Positions 6,314 through 27,456 of a stretch of DNA of 64,000 bases are shown here, one piece after another. The stretch is from contig NZ_JTAN02000001.1 of the NCBI RefSeq assembly GCF_000949135.2, forward strand, positions 62,001 to 126,000, in the 5' to 3' direction. Made by a program: the position numbers and the translations under genes. Source of the stretch: Burkholderia sp. USMB20. GTDB taxonomy: Bacteria > Pseudomonadota > Gammaproteobacteria > Burkholderiales > Burkholderiaceae. Below the pieces are notes generated by a model, which did no database searches, had not been told where the DNA came from, and saw nothing but the letters and a program-made list of their open reading frames with translations. Each line of letters starts with the position of its first letter. Position 1 is the first letter of the stretch.

Positions 6314-6841
6314 TTGCAGAACACGCCGCAGCCGCCGGTCACGCCGAAGATCCTCGTCAGCATGTGCGTGCTCGGCCACCCCGTCCGTTACAACGGCTCG
6401 GCGAAAACCGCCGCGCATGAAACGCTCGTACGGTGGCAGCGCGAAGGGCGCCTGGTGCCCGTGTGTCCGGAACTGGCAGGGGGATTGAGCGTGCCGCGTC
6501 CGCCCGCCGAGATCGCGGCAGGCGAATCGGGGCAACGCGTGCTGTCGGGTGCCGCGCGCATCGTCGACGTGCACGGCACCGACGTGACGGCCCCGTTCGT
6601 CGACGGCGCGCACGCCGCGCTCGCGCTGGCACGCGCGCACGACTGCCGCTTCGCGATCCTGGCGGACGGAAGTCCGTCGTGCGGAAGCAGCTTCATTTAC
6701 GACGGGAGTTTTGCGGGCCGGCGGCATGCCGGCGCCGGTGTGACGGCGGCGTTGCTGCGCCAGCATGGCATCGAGGTGTTCGCGGACACCGAGATCGACG
6801 CGCTCGCGGCACGCATCGCGCAGTATTCGCCGGCTGAATGA
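6314..6841 (+). CDS. DUF523 family protein
   Basis: This 175-residue protein has the features I associate with DUF523: an N-terminal ILVSMCVLGHPVRYNG block, a VPVCPELAGGLSVPRPPAE block, and DGSPSCGSSFIYDG in the second half. The repeated Cys-containing blocks suggest a metal or sulfur-related role, but the molecular function is not known to me. The start is TTG at 6314, supported by GGAGA ending 6 bases upstream and by the alignment of the first conserved block close to the N-terminus. It follows the GNAT gene on the same strand and ends one base before a strong terminator. Confidence 0.8.
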   Translation: MQNTPQPPVTPKILVSMCVLGHPVRYNGSAKTAAHETLVRWQREGRLVPVCPELAGGLSVPRPPAEIAAGESGQRVLSGAARIVDVHGTDVTAPFVDGAHAALALARAHDCRFAILADGSPSCGSSFIYDGSFAGRRHAGAGVTAALLRQHGIEVFADTEIDALAARIAQYSPAE

Positions 6842-6880
6842 CGAAGTGGCCGGCACGACGAACGCGTGCCGGCCACTTCG
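6842..6880. terminator. Bidirectional terminator hairpin between convergent genes
   Basis: A perfect 16-bp inverted repeat (CGAAGTGGCCGGCACG and its complement) with a 7-nt loop sits directly after the DUF523 stop and before the convergent pcaF stop. It is well placed to end transcription from both sides. Confidence 0.75.
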
Positions 6881-6943
6881 CTGGATGAGTCGGGAAAGGG
6901 AACACGGCGAAGCAGCGCCTGCGCGCTTCGCCGCATCGCGCGA

Positions 6944-8146
<1,203 letters not shown>

Positions 8147-8223
8147 CAGTGTCTCCGGTCTCATGCAAGCTGGGAAGTGAGTGAAACGCGCCCCTTGCTT
8201 TGCCCGCCGGGATGCGCTTAAAT

Positions 8224-8257
8224 GTTCTATATACGAACATAAGATCGTGTATCGAAC
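8224..8257. promoter_or_regulatory. Tandem IclR-type operator candidates between pcaF and its regulator
   Basis: GTTCTATATACGAAC (8224-8238) is a palindrome with GTTC/GAAC arms. A second, weaker 15-mer, GATCGTGTATCGAAC (8243-8257), follows at 19-bp phasing. The spacing of about two helical turns and the GTTC-N7-GAAC shape fit the binding sites of PcaR/PobR-type IclR proteins. Assignment to the adjacent regulator is inference. Confidence 0.55.
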
Positions 8258-8372
8258 GTCCAACGCATCATAGGGAGTGCGGGGACGACCTGTCAAGCGC
8301 CCGGTCCGCCGTGCGGTTGGCGTGTCAGGCCCCATGCGCTATCTTCTCGGCTGCACGACAATCCGACCGTTC

Positions 8373-9161
8373 ATGACAACCGAAGACATCCAGACGAAAC
8401 CGGGCGACTCCTATGTGCAGTCGTTCGCGCGCGGCCTCGCGGTGATCCGCGCATTCGACGCCCAGCGCCCGGAGCAGACGCTCACCGAGGTCGCCTCGGC
8501 CACCGGGCTCACGCGCGCCGGCGCACGCCGGATTCTGCTGACGCTGCAGACGCTCGGCTACGTCGAGGCGGACGGCCGGCTGTTCCGGCTCACGCCGAAG
8601 ATCCTCGAGCTCGGCTTCGCGTATCTCACGTCGATGCCGTTCTGGAATCTCGCCGATCCGGTGATGGAGCAGTTGTCCGCGCAGATCCACGAAAGCTGCT
8701 CGGCCGCCGTGCTCGACCGCACCGAGATCGTCTACGTGCTGCGCGTGCCGACCCGCAAGATCATGACGATCAACCTGTCGATCGGCAGCCGCCTGCCCGC
8801 GTACTGCACGTCGATGGGCCGCGTGCTGCTGGCGGCGCTCGACGACGCGGCGCTCGACGAAACGCTCGCGCAGAGCGGCATCCGCGCGCATACGCCGCGC
8901 ACGATCACCGACATCGGCGAACTGAAGGCGACGATCGCACAGGTGCGCCAGCAAGGCTGGGCCGTGGTCGACCAGGAACTGGAAGTGGGCTTGATGTCGA
9001 TCTCCGCGCCGATCCGCAACCGGCGCGGGCAGGTGATCGCCGCGATGAACATCAGCGGCAACGCGCAGCGGCACACCGCGAAGCAGATGGTGAAGGAGTT
9101 TCTCGGGCCGCTGCAGCAGGCCGCGCAGACGGTGTCGGAACTGGTCGCGCGGCGCGGGTGA
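8373..9161 (+). CDS. pcaR: IclR-family regulator (PcaR/PobR type)
   Basis: This is a 262-residue IclR regulator. Residues about 12-70 form the winged HTH (SYVQSFARGLAVIRAFDAQR, then LTEVASATGLTRAGARRILL). The C-terminal part is the effector-binding domain, with LPAYCTSMGRVLLAALDD and SISAPIRNRRGQVIAAMNIS. The ATG at 8373 is preferred because it places the HTH near the N-terminus as in the family; an in-frame start at 8277 would add an unrelated leader. It is divergent from pcaF, with operator-like palindromes between, so it probably activates pcaF in response to beta-ketoadipate. The pca assignment is by context. Confidence 0.75.
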   Translation: MTTEDIQTKPGDSYVQSFARGLAVIRAFDAQRPEQTLTEVASATGLTRAGARRILLTLQTLGYVEADGRLFRLTPKILELGFAYLTSMPFWNLADPVMEQLSAQIHESCSAAVLDRTEIVYVLRVPTRKIMTINLSIGSRLPAYCTSMGRVLLAALDDAALDETLAQSGIRAHTPRTITDIGELKATIAQVRQQGWAVVDQELEVGLMSISAPIRNRRGQVIAAMNISGNAQRHTAKQMVKEFLGPLQQAAQTVSELVARRG

Positions 9162-17783: not shown

Positions 17784-18099
17784 TCTCGGACATCGGCGAG
17801 TACATGCGCGTCAGCACGTTTGATGAAGCCAATGCAGAAATGCTGCGTGCACTACCGAGCCACAGCGACCGACAGATGGAGACACCGCATTCGACTGGAT
17901 TTCGGCTGAGTTGACGAGAAAAGGAATGACGGTGGAACTCGAGTTCGCTCGACGAGACAGGGATGTCTGCGGTAACTGGGCGCTAGACGCGTTGCATTGC
18001 ATCGAGGAAGCAGCAGCCGGCCGGTCCATCGAGAGGACCGGAATGCTCATAGCGAAGGTGTATCGCGACGCAGTCGTGAAGGAGCACGTCGTGCAATGA
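17784..18099 (+). pseudogene. Truncated, frameshifted copy of the orphan gene at 13,531
   Basis: The segment begins LLSDIGEYMRVSTFDEANAE and reads in parallel with the C-terminal 105 residues of the orphan protein at 13531-14157. The frame breaks near 17862-17880: the first half ends MLRALPSH, and the rest resumes in another frame as DGDTAFDWISAELTRKGMTV through ALDALHCIEEAAAG to VVKEHVVQ. The N-terminal half of the parent gene is absent. The two copies flank the recombinase remnant and the HbpS/oxidoreductase/LysR block, so the copy may have come with that block or from a local duplication. Confidence 0.75.
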
Positions 18100-18162
18100 G
18101 CGCCCGCGCGAACCGCCGTCACGTGCCTGAGCTTGCCGCGCCAACATAGGGCGCGACACGAA

Positions 18163-18858
18163 CTATGGAAGAATCATCGACCACCACGCAGGCATCTCGT
18201 CATGTAAGGCCAGTACGGCCCCGTTCTTTACAATGGCGACCGGTCGATGCGTGCCCTGCCCATCCTGCCGATCTGGAGAGTTGTCAAAAAACACGGCGAG
18301 CGGCACGATTTGCAGCGCTTTTTGCGCATTAGTAAAGACGCGCGGAAACCGCGCCTGCTGCACATCGGACGGGACGTCATGTCCTCCACCGCCGACCCGG
18401 TGTTGAACGCGCTGTTGGGCAAGCTGCACATTGTCCAGTCCAACAAAGAACATGATGACGTAGTACCCGGCGGCGACTCCACGTCGCAGTTCGTCAAGTT
18501 TGTGCCCGTACGGATCCGAAAAGACCGTTTCGAAGACGAAGTGGCTTTGAGCGCCCGGAGCCGCAGACAAGAGCAACTCGCGCCGGCGTGTCGCCTCGGC
18601 TTGCGCCTCCCGAGCAGTCTCTACCGTTTGCGGAGCTTGCGGGTCCGTTTGCGCCGCTTCGTTCAACTCACGCTCGATCTCGTCGGCGTTTATATATTCA
18701 GCCCCTAAGGCGTCTTCCAGCATTGGCTCCAGCTTTTTCCGCCAAAGCGTGGTCTTGCCAGCCCCATTGGGACCGGCAATCATGACCATGAGAGATTTGT
18801 CTCCTGCGCCTGCTATAAGCTCGTCAAGGAACAAGTCATAGAGCTGCGCCCCCGTCAA
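18163..18858 (-). CDS. Zeta-toxin-like P-loop kinase
   Basis: This 231-residue protein has the Walker A motif MIAGPNGAGKTTLW (G29-T36), then INADEIERELNEAA and FVFETVFSDPYGHKLDELRR with GYYVIMFFVGLDN, the pattern of zeta toxins and the predicted ABC-type ATPase family COG4185. Zeta toxins phosphorylate UDP-N-acetyl sugars or related small molecules; the substrate here is not known. The start is a TTG that overlaps the upstream HTH gene stop as TTGA, implying translational coupling. It is the last gene of a three-gene operon (TIGR04255-like, HTH, kinase). A non-toxic kinase is possible. Confidence 0.75.
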   Translation of the reverse strand: MTGAQLYDLFLDELIAGAGDKSLMVMIAGPNGAGKTTLWRKKLEPMLEDALGAEYINADEIERELNEAAQTDPQAPQTVETAREAQAEATRRRELLLSAAPGAQSHFVFETVFSDPYGHKLDELRRGVAAGYYVIMFFVGLDNVQLAQQRVQHRVGGGGHDVPSDVQQARFPRVFTNAQKALQIVPLAVFFDNSPDRQDGQGTHRPVAIVKNGAVLALHDEMPAWWSMILP

Positions 18859-19538
18859 CTCAGATCCATCCCGAATTTGTTCGCGTTCTTACGAAGATTT
18901 TCGACGCCCTTCTTCAACGCTTCGCGCTGGCCTGCTCGGTGTTGCCGGGTACGTGCGGTTGGACTGGTGGCTCGCGCCAGTAGCTCATACGCGTGCGCGA
19001 ATTCTCCCTGGTCCAGTTGCTGGCCGCAGAGCATCTGCAGCAGTGTTGTGTCTTTCCCTGGGATGATTTCGACCAGGTATTTCCCGGCCAGCGGCGCGTA
19101 ACTGCTCCATTGCTTGGCGATTTGGTACAACCGCCAGAGTCGGCTACGGTTGGACGAACTGAGCTTCTCCATCCGCTCGGTGCGCATCCATGCATAGATC
19201 GTAATCCGCTCAACCTGCAAGGTCTGCGCGAGCTGCGTGACATTTAAGCCAAATGCCGAGCGCAGTTTTTCCACCATCTCTGCGGGCGTCGTCAGGGCCG
19301 GCTCGGACGGGTGCCCGGCCGAAGCAAGTTGAAGTGGCAGTGGCACCGCCGCGTTGACGCTTGTTCCAAGGTACTGCTGCTGGGAATCGCTAAGACAGAT
19401 CACGACTGTCAGTAGTGCGGTACCGCAGTCAAGAGCCGTTCTCAATTCGCGAACACCCGTGGACCCGGACTGACGCCAGATTGCATCCTGTCCGATCGCC
19501 GAGCTCAATTTCGCGTCGCGCTCGGAGGCATAGATCAT
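18855..19538 (-). CDS. HTH protein, probable antitoxin/regulator of the zeta-like kinase
   Basis: This 227-residue protein has a helix-turn-helix at about residues 88-118 (EKLRSAFGLNVTQLAQTLQV, then ERITIYAWM), an XRE-like pattern. The C-terminal half is helical and ends in a basic segment (RQHRAGQREALKKGVENLRK). The N-terminal 80 residues have no recognised domain. The start at 19538 overlaps the upstream stop as ATGA, with GGAG close upstream, and its own stop overlaps the kinase start. Gene order and coupling suggest an antitoxin and autoregulator, perhaps acting on the repeats at 20417-20467. The pairing is inferred from context. Confidence 0.6.
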   Translation of the reverse strand: MIYASERDAKLSSAIGQDAIWRQSGSTGVRELRTALDCGTALLTVVICLSDSQQQYLGTSVNAAVPLPLQLASAGHPSEPALTTPAEMVEKLRSAFGLNVTQLAQTLQVERITIYAWMRTERMEKLSSSNRSRLWRLYQIAKQWSSYAPLAGKYLVEIIPGKDTTLLQMLCGQQLDQGEFAHAYELLARATSPTARTRQHRAGQREALKKGVENLRKNANKFGMDLS

Positions 19539-20368
19539 TTCGCGTCTCCTTTTGCTTTGTCAGTTTGCCATTCGTCATGCGCCAACGGGCTAATCATGGC
19601 GCGGAACGCAGACGATACGTCCGTATGCATTTGGGTGAACAGTTGATCGACGGTGGCTCGACCGGCGTTGTGTTCCCCGTCTATCCAGCGATCGCTGTCG
19701 ATAACCGCGCACTCGCCGACATTGACATGCACCGATTGGTGCCGAGGCGTCAGCATCCCTTGGAGATCCATAGGCAACGTTGGCACACCGACACCGCGCA
19801 TGAACTGCAGGCGCATTCTGCCAGGCGGAAAAGCGACGTCCACCATCGAAACGTGCAGATCGGGCCCCCGGGCAGCGCCAGGCAGTTCGGGCATACCGGC
19901 GAGGTTCCAAGGCGCATTGACGTAGTCCTCGGGGCGCCGCCCGCGGGTGGGGATCACAAAATCGACATAGCGCAGGCCAAGGCGCGTCACAGTCGTGACT
20001 TGCGCGTCGCCCAGGGCGTCGATGATTTCGAGCCACTGATCGCGGAAGTGCGGTGAGTCTACATAAGACGTGACGGCGTATGTAAGGGAGCCCGGCTGCA
20101 CGCGCACCATGCCGTCTACGTCACTGTTGACCAGGTCATATCCGACAGACTGGGTCGTTCGCGGTGGACCGCCATTCGGGTTGATCTCAATTCCCAAGCT
20201 ATTTGTCTGACTAATAGTTGGAAACCGACTGCCGATTCGTGTCGTGATTGCGTCGCGCAGGTGCTCTGGCGCTGCCGCGGCGCTAGGCAAAAAGCGGACT
20301 TGGGCAAGTACAAAGACTAACGGCGCGTTGGCCCATTGCCCCTTCTGGGGGACGGCGTTGCTACTCAA
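19535..20368 (-). CDS. TIGR04255-like family protein
   Basis: This 277-residue protein has the N-terminal pattern APLVFVLAQVRFLPSAA and a mid-region VTRLGLRYVDFVIPTRGRRP, which I associate with TIGR04255, a family common in defence and toxin-antitoxin neighbourhoods and without a known activity. The start is TTG at 20368; AAGGAG 7 bases upstream supports it. It is the first gene of the leftward operon and shares its promoter region with the multiubiquitin-like gene on the other strand. No membrane segments are visible. I am fairly sure of the family resemblance but cannot assign a function. Confidence 0.6.
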   Translation of the reverse strand: MSSNAVPQKGQWANAPLVFVLAQVRFLPSAAAAPEHLRDAITTRIGSRFPTISQTNSLGIEINPNGGPPRTTQSVGYDLVNSDVDGMVRVQPGSLTYAVTSYVDSPHFRDQWLEIIDALGDAQVTTVTRLGLRYVDFVIPTRGRRPEDYVNAPWNLAGMPELPGAARGPDLHVSMVDVAFPPGRMRLQFMRGVGVPTLPMDLQGMLTPRHQSVHVNVGECAVIDSDRWIDGEHNAGRATVDQLFTQMHTDVSSAFRAMISPLAHDEWQTDKAKGDAK

Positions 20369-20416
20369 GCGGACTCCTTCCGGTTCGTCGATGAACAGAT
20401 TTTACACCGCACTTTA

Positions 20417-20467
20417 CACCTTACACAAAATCTGACAGAATTTCCTCACCTTACACGAAACCTGACA
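20417..20467. promoter_or_regulatory. 30-bp-phased direct repeats in the divergent promoter
   Basis: CACCTTACACRAAAYCTGAC occurs at 20417-20436 and 20447-20466, followed in both by A, a period of 30 bp. Partial copies (TTTACACC) occur just upstream at about 20400-20420. The repeats fill the AT-rich gap between the TIGR04255-like and multiubiquitin-like starts. They look like operator sites that could let one DNA-binding protein control both operons. The HTH protein at 18855 is the obvious candidate, by inference. Confidence 0.7.
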
Positions 20468-20493
20468 TTTTTTAGTCAAAGGAGGCTAAAACC

Positions 20494-20748
20494 ATGTCTA
20501 CCCCGACACATACGACGACCATCATCGTCAACCTCGATCAGGTCCAGGTGCACGAAGCCAAGCTGACATACGCGCAGCTGGTGCACTTGGCGTACCCGCA
20601 GGATCCGCCTGCAGATACCTCCGATATCGTTTATACGGTTACGGTCGATTATCCGGACGGGCAAAGCCTGTCGCTGGCACGGGGCGAAAAGCCCGTACCG
20701 GTTAAAGAAGGGATGGTGTGCCATGTCCGCAAAACCGGCCGTTCTTGA
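20494..20748 (+). CDS. Multiubiquitin-like (beta-grasp) protein
   Basis: This 84-residue protein begins TTTIIVNLDQVQVHEAKLTY and reads IVYTVTVDYPDGQSLSLARG through VPVKEGMVCHVRKTGRS. This is the pattern of the bacterial multiubiquitin domain, here as a single beta-grasp copy. There is no C-terminal Gly-Gly; it ends TGRS, so conjugation may need processing or use another end. AAAGGAGG lies about 9 bases before the ATG. The stop overlaps the next gene start by 26 bases, so the two are coupled. In related operons such proteins act as ubiquitin-like modifiers for an E1/E2-like partner. Confidence 0.75.
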   Translation: MSTPTHTTTIIVNLDQVQVHEAKLTYAQLVHLAYPQDPPADTSDIVYTVTVDYPDGQSLSLARGEKPVPVKEGMVCHVRKTGRS

Positions 20749-21925
20749 TGCAGTGCTCGCTCCGTTCCTCGCTGCGGGGTTGCGAGTGACGGTGCAGGGG
20801 TCGTACTTGCTGTTGCACGACGTGCCAGTTGTCGACGACAAGAAACAGCTTCAGCTCGGCACCCTGATCGCAACGCTCATCTATACCGACAGCCAGGTAA
20901 CACCACCCGCAACGCATCAAGCGTGGTTCGACGGCCCGTTCCCGTGCTTCGCGAATGGCGGCACGATAGAACAGTTGCGACATTCGGACGTCGCTGGGGG
21001 ATTAGTCGCGCCCGAAGTTCCTGCTCGGTTCTACTTCTCCAACAAGGATGACGGCTGGACTGGTTACGCGACGCATTTCGATCAGCTGATGCACTACTGG
21101 CGCATCATCACGGACCAGGCGCGGGTGATCGATCCTCAGTGCACACGCCCTCTCGGGCACGGATCATCACAGGTCGCGCCTCGGACCTCTCCGTTCCGCT
21201 ACCCCGACGCATGCTCCGCTCGCGGCAACTTTGTTATGGCCTCAGAACGCTTAGCCAACTTGCGCATCGCGATCATTGGATTGGGGGGGACCGGGTCCTA
21301 CGTGCTGGACCAGGTAGCGAAGACACCGGTGCGGGAAATCCATCTTTTCGATGGCGACGTGTTCGAACTGCACAACGCCTTCCGGGCGCCGGCAGCAGCG
21401 TGCGAGACGAGTTTTGGCAGCTCCAAAGTCGCCTATTTCGCGCAACTGTACGGTCCAATGCATACTGGAATCGTCGAACATCCTGCGTACGTGACGGAAG
21501 CCAATGTTGGCCTGCTGGCGCAGTTTGACTTCGCTTTCGTCTGTGTCGACAAAGGCCCAGCGCGGCGGCTGATCTGCGCCAACCTCATCGCCCAAGGCGT
21601 GCCTTTCATCGACTGTGGCATGGACATGTCCCTCTCCGCAGCCCAGCAGATCTTCGGAACTTGCCGCGTCACAGTGGCCACACCCGGTCGAAACGGGCAT
21701 TTCTTTGATCGCGCTCCCACTATGGAAGACGCTGGCGATGCGCTGTACGACCAAAACATCCAGATCGCGGATGCGAATGCGCTCAACGCCATCCTGGCCG
21801 TCATGCGGTGGAAGCAGCATTTCGGCTTCTATGCGATGAACTGGGACTGGCACCAGTTGGAGTTTGTCATCAGCTCAATGGCGTTGGCTAAAGCAGAAAG
21901 AACGGAGGGCGAGGATGCGAATTGA
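20723..21925 (+). CDS. E1-like ThiF adenylyltransferase with DUF6791-like N-terminal domain
   Basis: This 400-residue protein has two parts. Residues 1 to about 165 resemble the DUF6791 region of bacterial ubiquitin-like operons, thought to be E2-like. Residues about 175-395 are a ThiF/E1 Rossmann domain: LRIAIIGLGGTGSYVLDQVA (G186-G191 nucleotide loop), HLFDGDVFELHNAFRAPAAA (Asp210, Asp212 and Arg221) and FAFVCVDKGPARRLI. It should adenylate the C-terminus of a ubiquitin-like protein. Cysteines at about 285, 298 and in GTCRV are candidates for thioester transfer; I cannot tell which. It overlaps the modifier gene upstream and the zinc-protein gene downstream. Confidence 0.8.
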   Translation: MSAKPAVLDAVLAPFLAAGLRVTVQGSYLLLHDVPVVDDKKQLQLGTLIATLIYTDSQVTPPATHQAWFDGPFPCFANGGTIEQLRHSDVAGGLVAPEVPARFYFSNKDDGWTGYATHFDQLMHYWRIITDQARVIDPQCTRPLGHGSSQVAPRTSPFRYPDACSARGNFVMASERLANLRIAIIGLGGTGSYVLDQVAKTPVREIHLFDGDVFELHNAFRAPAAACETSFGSSKVAYFAQLYGPMHTGIVEHPAYVTEANVGLLAQFDFAFVCVDKGPARRLICANLIAQGVPFIDCGMDMSLSAAQQIFGTCRVTVATPGRNGHFFDRAPTMEDAGDALYDQNIQIADANALNAILAVMRWKQHFGFYAMNWDWHQLEFVISSMALAKAERTEGEDAN

Positions 21926-22376
21926 CCGCGTCACGCCGGAACTGGTAGAGCTCGCACCTCGCGTGCTGGAACCAGGGCGGCTCTATATTAGCGAGAAGTA
22001 TCGTGCCGCCGTGCACCTCTGCTGCTGTGGATGCGGGGAAAAGGTGGTGACGCCTCTCTCCCCCGCAGAATGGCGCATCGAGCTTAGAGAGGGGCGAGTT
22101 TCCATGCGTCCGTCGATTGGAAACTGGTCAATGGCCTGCCAGTCTCATTACTGGATTCGTAATAACAGGGTGGTCTGGAGCGGACAGATGTCCAAGAGCC
22201 AGATCAGGGCAGTTTTTGAACGTGATCGTCGGGACTTGCAAGCGATGCATCGCAGCGCCCAAGAGCCGCGAATCGAGGACCGGAATTCCTCACTTCCCCC
22301 GCCTGTCAGCCCGAAGCAGGAACGCATTAGCTGGCGTTCATGGCTGAAGCAGTTTTGGCATTGGCTCACTCGCTAA
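21915..22376 (+). CDS. DUF6527-like zinc protein of the ubiquitin-like operon
   Basis: This 153-residue protein has HLCCCGCGEKVVTPLSPAEW (His34, Cys36, Cys38, Cys40), MRPSIGNWSMACQSHYWI (Cys75, His78) and NRVVWSG. This is the pattern I know as DUF6527, a family repeatedly found beside DUF6791/ThiF and multiubiquitin genes. The Cys/His set probably binds zinc. Reported or proposed roles for such partners are ligase-like or deconjugating activity, which I cannot decide here. The C-terminal tail is Pro-rich and ends in a Trp-rich amphipathic stretch (SWRSWLKQFWHWLTR). The start overlaps the E1-like stop by 11 bases. Confidence 0.7.
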   Translation: MRIDRVTPELVELAPRVLEPGRLYISEKYRAAVHLCCCGCGEKVVTPLSPAEWRIELREGRVSMRPSIGNWSMACQSHYWIRNNRVVWSGQMSKSQIRAVFERDRRDLQAMHRSAQEPRIEDRNSSLPPPVSPKQERISWRSWLKQFWHWLTR

Positions 22377-22673
22377 GCTGGCGCTTTACAACGGCACGAA
22401 GAAGCAATGCGGACAACCGATCGCGCGAGTTCAGCCGGCTGCTCCGAGCCTCAAGGGGCTTGAGAAAAATCGCGGTCTGGTGCGTACGATGCAAGACGTT
22501 ACAGTCGAATCAGCAGGCAGCGCTGAATTTTGGAGGCACCGGAACTTCAACCCCGTTTGGCGCCGGACGGAGCAGCATTGTGTATTGTCAAGTCGCGGTC
22601 GGAACATCGATTGCGAATTGGCGCTCGAGAGGTTGGAGGCAGCCACACGTGTTGGTCAACATGCGGACAGAGA
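22377..22673 (+). other. Gap inside the defence-like island
   Basis: These 297 bases separate the DUF6527-like gene from the next gene. One short open frame (about 22489-22686) overlaps the next start by 13 bases, which could indicate coupling, but its 65-residue product matches nothing I know. It may be a degraded gene. I do not call it. Confidence 0.3.
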
Positions 22674-23231
22674 ATGCAAACAATAGCGTGTCTTGGCTGG
22701 GGTTCTCTCGTTTGGGATACGCGAGAGCTCCCCATTCGAAATGGATGGTTTAACGACGGTCCCCTAGTACCTGTCGAATTTCTTCGTCAGTCGAAAGACG
22801 GAAGAATCACGCTGGTTATTGATGAAGGTGGGCCGCCCGTCCGCGTGCTGTGGGCGCTGATGGAAGCGACGAACATTCAAGACGCATGCCGTGCGCTGGC
22901 TGAGCGAGAGGGGATGCCCGAGAAGAACTGGTCGAAGCATGTCGGAGCGTGGGTACATGACGACGCGCCGCCGATCGTGATGCCAGCACTAGGCCAATGG
23001 GCACAAGCTTCCGGGATCAACGGAGTAGTATGGACGGCTCTGCCGCCGAAGCTGGACACCCGAGACGGGTATCGCCCGACCTCTGATGAAGTGGTCGCGT
23101 ACCTTGCGTCTCTCGAAGGGCAGCAGCGCGAGGTTGCAGAGCGGTATGTCCGCAAGGCGCCACGCCAGATTGATACTCCCTTCCGTCGACGCATCGAATC
23201 CGTTCTTCACTGGACCGCCAGCGACGAATAG
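22674..23231 (+). CDS. Unknown protein starting with a LGWGSL motif
   Basis: This 185-residue protein begins MQTIACLGWGSLVWDTRELP and continues GPLVPVEFLRQSKDGRITLV. The opening strand-loop with GSL resembles the entry motif of gamma-glutamylcyclotransferase-like folds (YGSL), but I cannot confirm that family. The middle is ALAEREGMPEKNWSKHVGAW and the end YVRKAPRQIDTPFRRRIESV. No membrane segments are visible. ATG 22674 is the first start that gives the conserved block; its ribosome site is weak. It may be a cargo gene of the same island on the strand of the ubiquitin-like operon. Confidence 0.6.
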   Translation: MQTIACLGWGSLVWDTRELPIRNGWFNDGPLVPVEFLRQSKDGRITLVIDEGGPPVRVLWALMEATNIQDACRALAEREGMPEKNWSKHVGAWVHDDAPPIVMPALGQWAQASGINGVVWTALPPKLDTRDGYRPTSDEVVAYLASLEGQQREVAERYVRKAPRQIDTPFRRRIESVLHWTASDE

Positions 23232-23402
23232 CGCTTTACGTTAGTCTTTGCTCTGTAAACGTCACCATCCGGGCCGTTTGGCAACGCCGCCACGAACGAC
23301 CACCTGCGACCGTCCATAGGAACCAAAATCTGGCTATATCCCCTTCATTTTCTCCCCAATTAGTCGTTATTAGCTTGTCGACTCATGATGGGGAGAAAGT
23401 AG

Positions 23403-23966
23403 TTGCAAAAGGACACGACCGATAGCCTTGCTACGTCCAGCGCGCAAACTTACGACGTGCTCAATAACTGGGAACTCGGAACCTCGGCTGTTAGTTTCGT
23501 CATGGTGTTCGCACTTCTCGTTGTGCTGCCGGGATATGACCTGTACGAGCACGTCCTGCCGCCATCATGGCGCGGCACGGCCAACGGCGTGCTCGGAGGT
23601 GCGATAGGTGTTTTTGCATTCATCGCATCCAAGCTTCGGGACGATGAACGGTTACGCCTGACTGTGCTTGGCAAAGAGCCGGCGTCAAAGGAGCACGTCA
23701 GTTATCTGCGCAATCGCCTGTTGTCGGGGATCCCATCCGGTTTCGTACTGTCGGCCCTGCTTGCCGCCTATCTTCCCAATTCGACCGATGCGCTACTTAC
23801 CGCGGCCGGCATCGTTGGAGGAGCGTCTAGCACACTGCTCTCAACTGTAGCGTCTGCCGTAGAGACATTCGCCGCCAAGTTGGGAAATCCTCGGAAGCCA
23901 GCATCCACCTCACGTTCATCTCGTATTGTGAGACAGCGCCACGGTGGCTCAGGTCAGAAGCGGTAG
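23403..23966 (+). CDS. Small membrane protein, function unknown
   Basis: This 187-residue protein starts from TTG 23403, supported by GGGGAGA about 8 bases upstream; there is no better ATG. Hydrophobic segments are at about residues 27-45 (SAVSFVMVFALLVVLPGY), 60-77 (NGVLGGAIGVFAFIASK), 110-128 (IPSGFVLSALLAAYL) and 135-155. The C-terminal 30 residues are basic and Ser-rich. This looks like a four-pass inner-membrane protein. In a defence-like island such proteins are often effectors, but there is no direct evidence of that. It is not obviously co-transcribed with its neighbours. Confidence 0.55.
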   Translation: MQKDTTDSLATSSAQTYDVLNNWELGTSAVSFVMVFALLVVLPGYDLYEHVLPPSWRGTANGVLGGAIGVFAFIASKLRDDERLRLTVLGKEPASKEHVSYLRNRLLSGIPSGFVLSALLAAYLPNSTDALLTAAGIVGGASSTLLSTVASAVETFAAKLGNPRKPASTSRSSRIVRQRHGGSGQKR

Positions 23967-24098
23967 GTTCATAGACGAGCGTCATGGATCCATCGGAACA
24001 CCATCGCCCGACTGAAATCACTGCTGCTACGGAGCCGCCGTTGTAGCCTCGTCTCCCCCGGAATCAATAATCGAAGCCTTTCAATTTACAAGAATTCT

Positions 24099-24956
24099 AT
24101 GTACCTCTACTTTCCCCCTCCCGCGAATTGGCAAGACTTCCAGACCCTTGCGGCACGTGCGGTATGCAATATATGCGACGAACCGACGGTACATGAATAT
24201 GGCCGTCAGGGACAACGTCAGCATGGTGTAGATGTGCACGGCGAGATGTACGACGGTCGGCAGCTGGGGTTGCAATGCAAGGAGATGAAGCCAGGCAAGA
24301 AATTGACAAAGGCCCTTATTGAGAAAGAGGCAGCGCTGGCACTTTCATTTCGCCCATCGCTCGATCTTTTCATTGTTACCACTACGCTGCCGAACGACAC
24401 AGAAGCACATGATGCAGTAGGCGAGCTAAACGCTTCAAAGGCGTACAGCTTCAAGATCGCTTACTGGAGTTGGGACCATTATGTCGATGTTCTCAACCGA
24501 TCCTCACAGTTGGTAGATTCAACCTACAAAGCCTATGCGGCAGGATTGGGCTATGACCAACAGCGTGCTCATTTGATCGCCCTCCACGAAGCTTTCGATC
24601 GGCCGTGTTTTGTGGACGATTTCGCGCATGAGCTAAGCAATACCGACTTTATGGAAGCCATGTCAGATATGCGACTTTTCTTGAAATCAGGACTTTTGCG
24701 CGACAGATTGTCTAACCAAATCATTTCCACTACATACGCCTTAACGATGCTGCCAAAAGGACCGGAGCGGGATCTTACGACGCACCTCCTGAAGAGTATC
24801 GACGACATCAGGAATAATGCCATCAAAGATCACACTGGTAACGTACTCGACGCGCAGAAGGCTCCCTTTTACAACGCCCTTCGTAAGGCTTTGATCGTGC
24901 GGCTCAATGCGGCCTTGGACGCCGGAGGGCTGCCGACGGTAAAACTTCGGTACTGA
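24099..24956 (+). CDS. Restriction-endonuclease-like (PD-(D/E)XK) protein
   Basis: This 285-residue protein begins WQDFQTLAARAVC and has EYGRQGQRQHGVDVHGEMYD, then GRQLGLQCKEMK. Asp45, Gln59 and Lys61 fit a D...QxK nuclease core of the kind seen in Mrr-like or STAND-associated nucleases. The following FRPSLDLFIVTTTLPNDTEA also fits that domain. Residues about 140-285 are helical and unrecognised. This suggests a DNA- or nucleic-acid-cleaving effector. Base composition is visibly more AT-rich than the chromosomal genes, consistent with transfer. It has its own AT-rich upstream region (23967-24098), so it may be expressed separately. Confidence 0.65.
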   Translation: MYLYFPPPANWQDFQTLAARAVCNICDEPTVHEYGRQGQRQHGVDVHGEMYDGRQLGLQCKEMKPGKKLTKALIEKEAALALSFRPSLDLFIVTTTLPNDTEAHDAVGELNASKAYSFKIAYWSWDHYVDVLNRSSQLVDSTYKAYAAGLGYDQQRAHLIALHEAFDRPCFVDDFAHELSNTDFMEAMSDMRLFLKSGLLRDRLSNQIISTTYALTMLPKGPERDLTTHLLKSIDDIRNNAIKDHTGNVLDAQKAPFYNALRKALIVRLNAALDAGGLPTVKLRY

Positions 24957-25241
24957 GCGCTTTCATGGCGAATGATTGATGATGCGCGGCTCACCCTGGG
25001 CTGCGCCTCTGCACCGTTTCTCCGCTCGACCACGTCAGGTCATTCTGGGTATGCTGATGAGCGACTGGCCACGTCTGCAGCGGAACCAGGGTAGCCGAAA
25101 ACGAACCCTCGCGACGAATCTCGGGCAGGCGAGCGGCACTACGCGACATCTCCTCGAGTAAGCGAGGCACAGAATAAGCGAACAGGTATTACGTAATGGT
25201 ATCGGCGTACCCGCTGCTTCACTCATTCCTGGCGCGGGCGG

Positions 25242-25480
25242 TCATTCCTCGAACTGACGAATTGTCGCGTTGTACGCGCGCGCTGCCATCTCTTCCAATG
25301 GCAGCTTGCGCTCGACTTCAGATAGAATTTCCACGCCCCAAGGACCATCGAAGACCGTCGCCTGAACCGCTTTGATGAATCCCTTCACGTCAAGAACGCC
25401 TTCACCGGGCAAGCGACGCTTGTGACAGGTGTCCATCCACAGCGTCTCGATTGCATAGCGGTCAGCGTCGTCGAGCTCAG
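25242..25480 (-). pseudogene. C-terminal fragment of a sugar phosphate isomerase/epimerase
   Basis: The minus strand reads ELDDADRYAIETLWMDTCHK, then LPGEGVLDVKGFIKAVQ and FDGPWGVEILSEVERKLPLE to the stop. This is the C-terminal end of a xylose-isomerase-like TIM-barrel protein of the sugar phosphate isomerase/epimerase family, whose last strand typically has GPWGVEILS. About two-thirds of the gene is missing. It stops abruptly at about 25,480 where an M24-peptidase fragment begins on the other strand, showing a chimeric junction. Confidence 0.75.
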
Positions 25481-25744
25481 TTGACGACCAACATGGAACT
25501 GCTGCGCCCGGCCATGACGCTCCGGGAATTCGCTGAACGCAACTGGAACATGCCGGCCGCGTATCGAAAGAACCGCTACAGCTGCCTCGCGCACGGCATC
25601 CGCATGGTCGACGAGTATCCGTCTGCTGCGTACGGCATCGAATGGGAACGCGGAGGATACGACGGCCGATTCGAAAGCGGGATGACGCTGTGCGTCAAAA
25701 GCCACATCGGCGCGGATCGCGCTTGTATAGCGATCAAGCTGTAG
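25480..25744 (+). pseudogene. Fragment duplicating the dddP-like gene at 32,421
   Basis: This 265-bp segment is about 90 percent identical by eye to 33,326-33,590 of the dddP-like gene. It encodes QLTTNMELLRPAMTLREFAE through CLAHGIRMVDEYPSAAYGIE to GRFESGMTLCVKSHIG. The metal-ligand Glu is changed to Lys (CVES to CVKS) and the HGIG motif to HGIR. It has no start of its own and lacks the rest of the gene. It is an inactive duplicate joined to the epimerase fragment. Confidence 0.85.
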
Positions 25745-25834
25745 TGGTGAGAGAGATTCGCGATTCGCGTCGAGTACGGAAGGCATCCGTTGCACGCCAA
25801 CCATCAAAATTCGGCTTGTTCGTCGTCCGGCCCG

Positions 25835-26836
25835 CTACCGACGGAGTGCAACACTGACATCGAGCCACCCGCGCATCATCACGCTGACCTCGTCGCTCAG
25901 CCATTGACGGAACAGTCGGTATTCCTCGCGCGGCTGCGCATTCCGGTGCGTGATCAGATAGTGATGGCGATCGCGAAACACGAGCACGTCCTGCACCGGA
26001 CGCACGAGAACGCCGTCATCGATCTGCCGGTGCACGAGGTGATGCCAGCCCAGCAGCGTCCCCTCGCCTGCTTCGGCCTGCGCGACGAGCAGGCGATAGT
26101 CGTTGCTTTCCAGCGACTTGTTCTCGATCAGCGTGTCGGTGCCGTCGCTTTGCTGGAACCAGTTGCGCCACACGCGCCAGTCGACGTGCTCGCACACCTG
26201 CGCGCGGCCGAGCATCGACAGGTTCAGGGTCGGGCACGACAACAGGTCGAGCGGCTTCAGCGACCGGCCGTGAAAATGCCGCTCGTGAAACGACGGGCCG
26301 CACACCGGATACACGATGTCGTGAAAGAGCGGCTCGGCTTCGAATTCCGGCTCGCGCGGCGGGTTCTTCGTGATGATCACGTCGGGCTCGATGAGCCCGT
26401 CGAGTTCCATGAAGTGCTCGGTGACGATCACGTGGAGCTGGATGTTCGGAAACTGCTCGCGAAACGCGGGCAGCCGCGACGAAAGCCACAGCGCCGAGAA
26501 CGTATGCGACACGCAGATCATCAGCGCGTGCCTGTCGGTGCGGCGCACCGCCTCCGCCGCCTCGGCGATGTTCATGATCGACAGGTACGACGCGTTGTAG
26601 AGGACGCGCCCCGCATCCGTCAGCGCGATATGCCGGCCGGTGCGCTCGAACAGCGCGACGTCGAGCGAATCCTCGAGCTCCTTGATCTGCCGGCTGATCG
26701 CCGCCTGCGTGACGCACAGCACCTCGGCCGCCTGGGTGAAGCTCTCGTAGCGCGCCGCCGTCACGAAGCATCGCAGCGCGCGAAGCGACGGCATCTGCGC
26801 GAGAAGTCGGTCGGCAAACAATTGCTTCTTCAACAT
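25835..26836 (-). CDS. LysR-family transcriptional regulator (GcvA-like)
   Basis: This 333-residue regulator has the LysR winged HTH in the MPSLRALRCFVTAARYESFT and LEDSLDVALFERTGRHIALT region, which fits the GcvA/AmpR-like branch (SLRALR start). The effector domain follows with VDWRVWRNWFQQ and AEAGEGTLLGWHHLV. ATG 26836 is used; an internal ATG before SLRALR (42 bases later) is an alternative. It lies near the gene fragments related to the dddP-like gene and upstream of the betaine genes, so it may once have controlled that set. No target can be named. Confidence 0.8.
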   Translation of the reverse strand: MLKKQLFADRLLAQMPSLRALRCFVTAARYESFTQAAEVLCVTQAAISRQIKELEDSLDVALFERTGRHIALTDAGRVLYNASYLSIMNIAEAAEAVRRTDRHALMICVSHTFSALWLSSRLPAFREQFPNIQLHVIVTEHFMELDGLIEPDVIITKNPPREPEFEAEPLFHDIVYPVCGPSFHERHFHGRSLKPLDLLSCPTLNLSMLGRAQVCEHVDWRVWRNWFQQSDGTDTLIENKSLESNDYRLLVAQAEAGEGTLLGWHHLVHRQIDDGVLVRPVQDVLVFRDRHHYLITHRNAQPREEYRLFRQWLSDEVSVMMRGWLDVSVALRR

Positions 26837-27456
26837 GGCTTTCACTCTCAAAACGGAGGTCGGACGCTGCGTCGACGCACCCGTCGACGACAGTCCCGCC
26901 GGTTGCTCGCGCGGGTCTCGTCGCAAACCTTTCAATTATTCGATCAGTGCAGCTTGTGCGTCAGCCGGGCGGCTGGCAAGAGCGGCTCGGCCGCCGCCAC
27001 GGCGTCACGATGACGCCATTCTCGATCCATTGTGCACCGCATCGCCATATCGGAATCGACGAGAGCGACGGCAACGCGCACGTCGAATCGTCACGTCCGT
27101 CGGTTGCGCCGCCACGTCGTGGCGTCGTGGCGTCGTAGCATCGTGGCGAGCAGCCGGGCGCAGCGTCGTTTGTCTCGTCGCGCACAGCGTGATCGGCCGG
27201 CGCGGTGCGGCATCGCGATCGATCTGCAGCGCACCGCAGACACATAGCCATCGCGGCGCCTCTGCTAGCGCGGGCTGCCATTCCGACGACCTCACCCAGA
27301 AACTCGCCGTCTGGCTCAATGAGAAAAATGCAGACAAAGCCGAACTCGATGTAACTTGCCCGGGTGGGTGAAGTCCGATGAAAACCGGCCCCCACCCGCT
27401 CCGCACCCTGGCGCTGCCGCATGCCGAGCCGGCACGAGCCGCCTCATTCCCCGCAG
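26837..27456. other. Intergenic region between LysR and the GlxA-type regulator
   Basis: These 620 bases contain only open frames with no family signature. The tract 27110-27260 is rich in short CGTCGT/GTCGTGGCGTCGTGG-like repeats. No terminator or RNA gene is evident to me. It probably holds the LysR promoter. Confidence 0.35.

Follow-up and report, generated by a model that had tools for sequence, protein, structure and literature searches.

A conserved divergent locus in Burkholderia sp. USMB20 suggests TIGR04255-HTH genes as a new type of controller of a ubiquitin-like conjugation operon

We analyzed a 64,000-nucleotide stretch of the Burkholderia sp. USMB20 genome (contig NZ_JTAN02000001.1; hereafter, the window), in which two three-gene operons diverge from a common gap. 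The leftward operon encodes a TIGR04255 family protein, a helix-turn-helix (HTH) protein and a zeta-type kinase, which together are referred to here as the triad. The rightward, conjugation operon encodes a ubiquitin-like protein (multiubiquitin), an E1-like enzyme (DUF6791-ThiF) and a DUF6527 protein. The six-gene locus is real, conserved and uncommon. Its two halves are linked, the block recurs in other genomes, repeats are shared between the two promoters, and both the neighbors of the conjugation operon and the third gene of the TIGR04255-HTH pair are exchanged among relatives. We thus propose, with a probability that we put at roughly 0.6, that the leftward genes constitute a cassette of a new type that controls a Bub-like operon, and that the six genes form one divergent locus with a common regulator. 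As the two gene groups travel together in some bacteria and one set of DNA signals lies between them, both are probably turned on by the same switch in the cell.

Bacterial ubiquitin-like pathways are still being worked out, with the timing of their activation and their targets being at issue for many of them. The locus considered here supplies a controller family, TIGR04255-HTH, with a specific and directly testable putative operator. It also supplies a clue, in that the third gene is a kinase with the conjugation operon and another gene, termed CDL, without it. This exchange hints at a joint action of kinase and conjugation and thereby yields a short list of candidate conjugation substrates.

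Results

Gene content of the locus

The coordinates of the locus are listed in Table 1. A first-pass annotation of the window had described these six genes, with leftward overlaps of 4 bases each and rightward overlaps of 26 (multiubiquitin/DUF6791-ThiF) and 11 bases (DUF6791-ThiF/DUF6527), as well as a gap with phased repeats, and our analysis reproduced all of these. Five of the six gene names are backed by family matches above curated cut-offs. In Pfam, the kinase matches Zeta_toxin (33.9 bits, cut-off 22.3), the ubiquitin-like protein matches Multi_ubiq (30.9 bits, cut-off 24.5) and the last rightward protein matches DUF6527 (83.5 bits, cut-off 23.6), while in NCBIfam the first leftward protein matches TIGR04255 (132.2 bits, cut-off 30). 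The E1-like protein matches both DUF6791 (102.5 bits, cut-off 25) and ThiF (53.8 bits, cut-off 28.1), in addition to PRK06153.1-3 of NCBIfam (616 bits, cut-off 340). The exception is the HTH protein, which has no Pfam or NCBIfam match above the curated cut-offs and shows weak HTH matches inside residues 78-143. Among members of its family, 13 of 18 match HTH_23 (E-value up to 0.1); the generic matches of the window copy are weak. NCBIfam describes the TIGR04255 family as 'sporadically distributed', and the terms TIGR04255, DUF6791 and DUF6527 are without mention in the full-text literature searched.

Table 1 Genes and putative regulatory features of the divergent locus (window positions)
Feature	Position	Strand	Basis or remark
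Zeta-type P-loop kinase	18163-18858	-	Third gene of leftward operon; Pfam Zeta_toxin
HTH protein	18855-19538	-	Second leftward gene; predicted DNA-binding regulator
TIGR04255 family protein	19535-20368	-	First leftward gene, TTG start; NCBIfam TIGR04255
Shared divergent promoter region, 125 bp	20369-20493	.	Gap between operons
Putative operator core, four repeats spaced 12-7-12	20399-20407, 20411-20419, 20418-20426, 20430-20437	-	Motif
Weak candidate promoter of TIGR04255 operon, TTGTGT-18-TAAAAT	20399-20428	-	By eye; missed by promoter scan
Candidate sigma-70 promoter of multiubiquitin operon, TTTACA-17-CAGAAT	20413-20441	+	Inside array
Second putative operator pair, multiubiquitin side, 12-bp register	20448-20456, 20460-20467	-	Direct repeat, alignment conservation
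Multiubiquitin, 84 aa, single ubiquitin-like domain	20494-20748	+	Pfam Multi_ubiq
DUF6791-ThiF, E1-like adenylating enzyme with N-terminal domain, 400 aa	20723-21925	+	Pfam, NCBIfam
DUF6527 protein, 153 aa counted from ATG	21915-22376	+	Pfam DUF6527

Recurrence of the six-gene block

A species-genome collection was scanned with a short-peptide pattern of the E1-like protein, an approach that detects close relatives only. Eight loci were found, six of which (L001-L006, in Ralstonia, Paraburkholderia, Cupriavidus and a Vitreoscilla metagenome-assembled genome) contain the complete six-gene set, likewise divergent and in the same order, with protein identities of 57-87%. Each of these six intact-block genomes has a TIGR04255 gene. 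At L007, only the ubiquitin-like half is present, and TIGR04255 was not found in that genome. The eighth locus, L008 (Paraburkholderia caledonica, 6529-8823), holds a broken block: the coding sequences of the kinase and of the HTH protein are both divided among different frames, the end of the TIGR04255 gene directly adjoins the later portion of the E1 gene, and the promoter and multiubiquitin gene are missing. This break may be an assembly error near the contig end.

Among 399 genomes sampled from the order, TIGR04255 was found in 34 genomes (41 places), DUF6791 in 11 and both in three. In all three, one of which is the starting genome, the pair is adjacent and divergent, where chance alone would give about 0.003 adjacencies of this kind, assuming 3.9 Mb per genome. 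The two newly found genomes (G208 and G148) also carry the HTH and kinase genes, at identities of 43% for the E1-like protein and 35-37% for TIGR04255, and their flanking open reading frames (ORFs) differ in size (flanks were compared by size, not by sequence). The co-occurrence search suggested in the first-pass annotation thus found the divergent block down to 43% E1 identity, with the wider families often apart. That annotation had also named, in advance, independent occurrence of the two halves in most genomes as evidence against a single unit, and such independence was found in part: eight of the 11 DUF6791 operons in the order sample lack the triad, and 26 of the 36 TIGR04255-HTH pairs surveyed below lack a ubiquitin-like operon in the fetched stretch. 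Besides the half-locus L007, a kinase-type triad lies in a genome in which no DUF6791 gene was found (G281), and the triad is absent from the nine DUF6791 plasmid records opened, out of 128 matched. In an E1 tree built from 23 rows, the triads group in a supported clade, the 11 members of which are nine triads, L067 (with a WYL neighbor) and L007 (HTH and protein kinase); the triad label needs three changes on this tree, at least two of which are forced.

An operator-like repeat array in the shared gap

The gap contains TTACAC four times (mean of 0.14 and maximum of 2 in 500 shuffles) and a 30-bp direct repeat (20417-20446 and 20447-20476, 77% identical). Read in the direction of TIGR04255, six repeats can be listed, namely GTGTAAAAT, GTGTAAAGT, GTGTAAGGT, TGTCAGAT, GTGTAAGGT and TGTCAGGT, with spacings of 12-7-12-18-12 bp. 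When the gaps of seven close loci were aligned, 49 of 132 columns were invariant (L004 equals L006 across the gap) and the repeats were among the best-conserved stretches, with the repeat cores and the CTCCT of the leftward ribosome site being invariant in all seven. A sigma-70 scan returned three sites in 4.7 kb, against 1.5 expected by shuffling, such that the multiubiquitin candidate is weak when taken alone. As this candidate promoter lies inside the array, the TIGR04255-HTH array covers the region in which the conjugation operon begins.

For surveys, we defined a strict operator pattern, TGTMAA-N6-TGTMAA, and its half-site, TGTMAA. In the window, the strict pattern occurs once (20401-20418), and not at all in 100 shuffles. 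Across 125 non-redundant fetched loci (1.06 Mb), 24 strict sites were found, and all 24 lie 13-96 nt upstream of a conserved TIGR04255 start, on the TIGR04255 strand, with an HTH gene present. Considered by locus, the pattern was seen in 20 of 35 TIGR04255 loci with HTH, in none of 56 TIGR04255 loci without HTH and in none of 26 ubiquitin-like loci without TIGR04255. Half-sites behave similarly, with 15 found against 1.8 expected in nine triads with a conjugation operon, 31 against 2.8 in 14 other TIGR04255-HTH loci, and 1 against 2.3 in 16 TIGR04255 loci without HTH. Presence of the HTH gene thus tracks the operator motif across loci. The same type of repeat also lies directly upstream of TIGR04255 in TIGR04255-HTH loci without ubiquitin-like genes, four of which (L074, L145, L147 and L148) present the identical 12-7-12 register. 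Since the operator sites all lie upstream of HTH-partnered TIGR04255 genes, TIGR04255-HTH is a conserved and probably autoregulated pair.

The third gene follows the conjugation operon

We surveyed the third gene in 36 TIGR04255-HTH loci including the window, some of which were judged from 1.5 kb per side, flanks that are enough to reveal the conjugation operon in known triads. CDL was found in 23, a zeta-type kinase in 11 and neither in two, and the first two never occur together in the fetched stretch of any locus. The conjugation operon adjoins 10 of the 11 kinase-type loci and none of the 23 CDL loci. With the window left out, the figures are 9/10 and 0/23 (Fisher p = 2.6e-7), and when considering only genomes reached via TIGR04255, excluding the starting genome, they are 4/5 and 0/21 (p = 0.0003). 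Together with the common repeat array, this linkage gives sequence-level support to the earlier suggestion that the six genes are one regulated unit.

The kinase domain is present with its catalytic residues. In eight sequences with identities down to 35%, the Walker A lysine K35, D59, E110-T111, R150, R154, R170 and R173 are invariant, with D59 corresponding to zeta Asp67 by motif, not by structure. The CDL proteins, mostly of about 275 aa, contain an (H/Q)xC(D/N)L motif in the sequences read and have no family name; six of them were scanned without a Pfam match above the cut-off, two of these also being without an NCBIfam match. TIGR04255-HTH-CDL is a recurring three-gene module, found at L045, L046, L068-L076, L114, L115, L120, L123 and L129, and further at L144-L148, L156 and L160.

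Most fetched TIGR04255 genes lack an HTH partner (50 loci in this survey, L077-L087 and others). Where long flanks were available, one or two small genes follow the HTH-less TIGR04255 gene, which describes a second type of TIGR04255 module; ten such small ORFs gave no Pfam match.

Neighbors of other ubiquitin-like operons

We also recorded the recognized genes on the promoter side of 23 ubiquitin-like operons without the triad, in some of which a small gene intervenes before the neighbor. The most frequent neighbors were M78/IrrE peptidases, with or without a recognized HTH gene (six operons: L061, L064, L093, the latter below the cut-off, L096, L107 and L108), and WYL proteins (four: L066, L067, L105 and L109). 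A 1,124-aa UvrD-M78-nuclease fusion or its relatives adjoins three operons (L062, L063 and L094) and UvrD lies beyond an insertion sequence at one (L113). Single cases are a GHKL ATPase with a weak MarR-like match (L065), HTH with a protein kinase and a gene with weak TPR matches (L007), XRE (L106), ribbon-helix-helix (L112), a sigma factor with UvrD (L110) and RES (L097). In three operons (L060, L095 and L111), nothing was recognized above the cut-off. Because the regulators found here are varied and the E1 clade holding the triads is mixed, the promoter-side position is exchanged among regulators.

Some of these neighborhoods have features of their own. The M78 peptidase/UvrD helicase/PD-(D/E)XK nuclease fusion and its relatives (L062:8862-12236, L063:8978-12361 and L094:8936-12319) lie on the same strand, directly upstream of multiubiquitin, the relatives in two more genomes being 62-64% identical. 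At L007 (909-4256), the HTH gene is divergent and is followed by the protein kinase and then the weak-TPR gene, which is possibly another controller cassette. On two Rhodobacterales plasmids (L107 and L108), a gene with a HipA domain, accompanied by an HTH gene of its own, lies beyond the HTH and IrrE pair. On a Rhizobium plasmid (L112:7173-9346), a TIGR04255 gene with two unlike partners is found just downstream of the multiubiquitin operon.

Discussion

Comparison with known controllers and zeta-type toxins

According to Chambers et al. 2026 (PMC13373217), Bub operons are accompanied by three kinds of controllers, CapW (WYL), CapH with CapP (HTH and peptidase) and CapK with CapS (GHKL and winged HTH), such that of 544 operons 219 have CapW or CapH and CapP and 59 have CapK and CapS. 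The window locus resembles these in combining an operon of E1-like and ubiquitin-like genes with a gene for a DNA-binding regulator at its promoter, here recognized from sequence as the HTH gene and the array. Moreover, relatives of the present operon hold look-alikes of all three controllers, by domain match (WYL, HTH with M78, and GHKL with a weak winged HTH), in the same promoter-side position. The occupants of this position suggest transcriptional control first. The controller in the window differs, however, as it consists of TIGR04255, HTH and a zeta-type kinase, and neither 'zeta toxin' nor 'TIGR0' occurs in the main text of PMC13373217. The three leftward proteins showed no WYL, IrrE-peptidase (M78) or GHKL and STAS domains at E-values up to 1. 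Furthermore, while the CapS sites given in that source are TTAA palindromes, the window repeats are direct and 12 bp apart. Relief of repression upon DNA damage is a further trait of the Cap controllers.

As in the epsilon/zeta and PezAT systems, the kinase belongs to the Zeta_toxin family and keeps the motif residues. In PezAT, an HTH gene lies upstream of the toxin gene, as in the window. The window differs from both systems in having the additional TIGR04255 gene and the divergent conjugation operon, and the two neighbors of the kinase have no Pfam or NCBIfam match to an epsilon- or PezA-type antitoxin up to an E-value of 1, although remote fold kinship is possible.

Proposed mechanism and its alternatives

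In the controller reading, the HTH protein would recognize, just upstream of its own operon, direct repeats of approximately (A/G)TGT(A/C)AA(A/C/G)(T/C) that are arranged in a 12-bp register. In the lineage of the window, the usual third gene of the TIGR04255-HTH pair would have been replaced by the zeta-type kinase, and the array would extend across the promoter of the multiubiquitin/DUF6791-ThiF/DUF6527 operon, so that one regulator would set the expression of both sides. Binding would repress and stress would release the repression. TIGR04255 may serve as the sensor and the kinase, by way of a guess, as a signal relay or second effector, with the output possibly being defence.

Several observations weigh against this reading. 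Sister TIGR04255-HTH modules carry a third gene other than the zeta-type kinase, and the kinase tracks the conjugation genes, which is not required of a pure controller. The Bub controllers described in PMC13373217 consist of one or two genes, whereas the operon considered here has three genes, the last of them a kinase. Among 398 genomes sampled across the phylum, DUF6791 was present in eight and TIGR04255 in 30, and both families were found in the starting genome only. The kinase-type triads are few and confined to a single region of the E1 tree, such that part of the linkage is explained by shared descent. With regard to the operator, the exact pair is missing in 15 of the 35 TIGR04255 loci with HTH, including L005, L044, L058 and L059, and the motif was fixed after 11 promoters of TIGR04255-HTH loci outside the close group had been read. 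Because of this prior inspection, the later family sample serves as the fair test, and there, in favor of the motif, at least two half-sites were present in 4/6 HTH-linked loci against 0/19 others (Fisher p = 0.0012). A phylum-wide held-out sample, which contained remote HTH relatives only, gave no signal, with at least two half-sites in 0/5 remote HTH loci against 1/22 others.

A rather unlikely alternative is that the locus is a toxin-antitoxin system, in which the kinase is a toxic effector checked by the HTH and/or TIGR04255 protein and is restrained or released by ubiquitin-like tagging of itself or its partners. The motif residues kept in all eight aligned kinases would suit such a role, as would the 4-base overlaps of the leftward genes and the precedent of PezT, where a passage of PMC3062530 states that toxicity requires phosphoryl transfer by a conserved Asp. 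Since kinase-type triads, and not CDL-type ones, adjoin the conjugation operon, the idea of the first-pass annotation that conjugation restrains, triggers or modifies a toxin-like kinase stays alive. However, the partner genes lack an epsilon-type match, several neighbors in the same position elsewhere are regulators, and the triad of G281, with no DUF6791 gene found in its genome, implies that conjugation is not always needed to hold the kinase. It is also conceivable, but unlikely, that kinase and ubiquitin-like pathway are the two halves of one effector, both fired by TIGR04255-HTH, with conjugation of the 84-residue protein gating the kinase or a kinase product triggering conjugation, in what would be a growth-arrest or abortive-infection system under the control of a ubiquitin-like tag.

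That each half is found without the other, and that the block lies in a stretch of lower G+C content, would fit two independent modules of a defence island that share an intergenic region by chance and are co-carried by descent and transfer. Yet the same orientation recurs at 43% E1 identity between flanking ORFs of other sizes (the flank sequences not having been compared), the repeats are conserved across both promoters and the kinase/CDL split follows the conjugation operon, such that we find chance sharing quite unlikely. Very unlikely, in our view, is a single biochemical machine in which TIGR04255 and the kinase, instead of controlling the conjugation pathway, would belong to it, be it as substrate receptor, substrate or modifying enzyme. 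The rightward operon indeed contains no recognized separate E2, E3 or protease gene and the kinase-type third gene tracks it, but most of the multiubiquitin/DUF6791/DUF6527 operons examined lack the three leftward genes and are presumably functional, and most TIGR04255-HTH pairs have no adjoining conjugation genes.

The conjugation operon and the surroundings of the locus

The adenylation site of DUF6791-ThiF is intact, with G186, G188, G189, D210, D212, R221, K235 and D276 being invariant in 13 sequences. The profile of these sequences matches the E1 part of Citrobacter BubCD (PDB 9ea4, 9ea5, 9ea8, 9eae and 9eav) with an E-value of 1.2e-10 over profile positions 171-302, and the likeness is limited to this adenylation part, the N-terminal domains being unaligned. 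DUF6791 residues 16-162 occupy the place of the BubCD N-terminal part, which we take to be E2-like; an alignment between the two was not obtained. C274, in the adenylation domain, is the sole invariant cysteine of the E1 alignment, while C75 is kept in 12 of the 13 sequences and S106 is invariant.

A ubiquitin-like gene is present beside the E1 gene, as indicated by Multi_ubiq and by the profile match to the solved ZDHYS365 multi-ubiquitin domain protein (PDB 9cd2, chain A; E-value 4.2e-18), which reaches the last residue of the chain; the window protein has one ubiquitin-like domain. The 9cd2 entry is presumably the structure from Gong et al. 2025. The ubiquitin-like proteins end in (R/K)S in 12 of 13 sequences and in RA in one, with no diglycine at the end of any. 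In DUF6527, an alignment of 12 sequences presents conserved CCCGC and CxSH motifs, which are likely a metal site, and the best match to solved structures is a weak one to 'ms66' (E-value 0.077).

Downstream of the locus, ORFs at 22611-23231, 23403-23966, 24099-24956 and 25790-27013 have no Pfam match above the cut-off. The G+C content is 0.57-0.60 at 18-24 kb, compared to 0.59-0.62 at 12-18 kb and 0.62-0.67 from 26 kb, and over 18000-26000 as a whole ranges from 0.51 to 0.60, with the minimum at 24 kb. The six-gene block may therefore sit in an acquired island.

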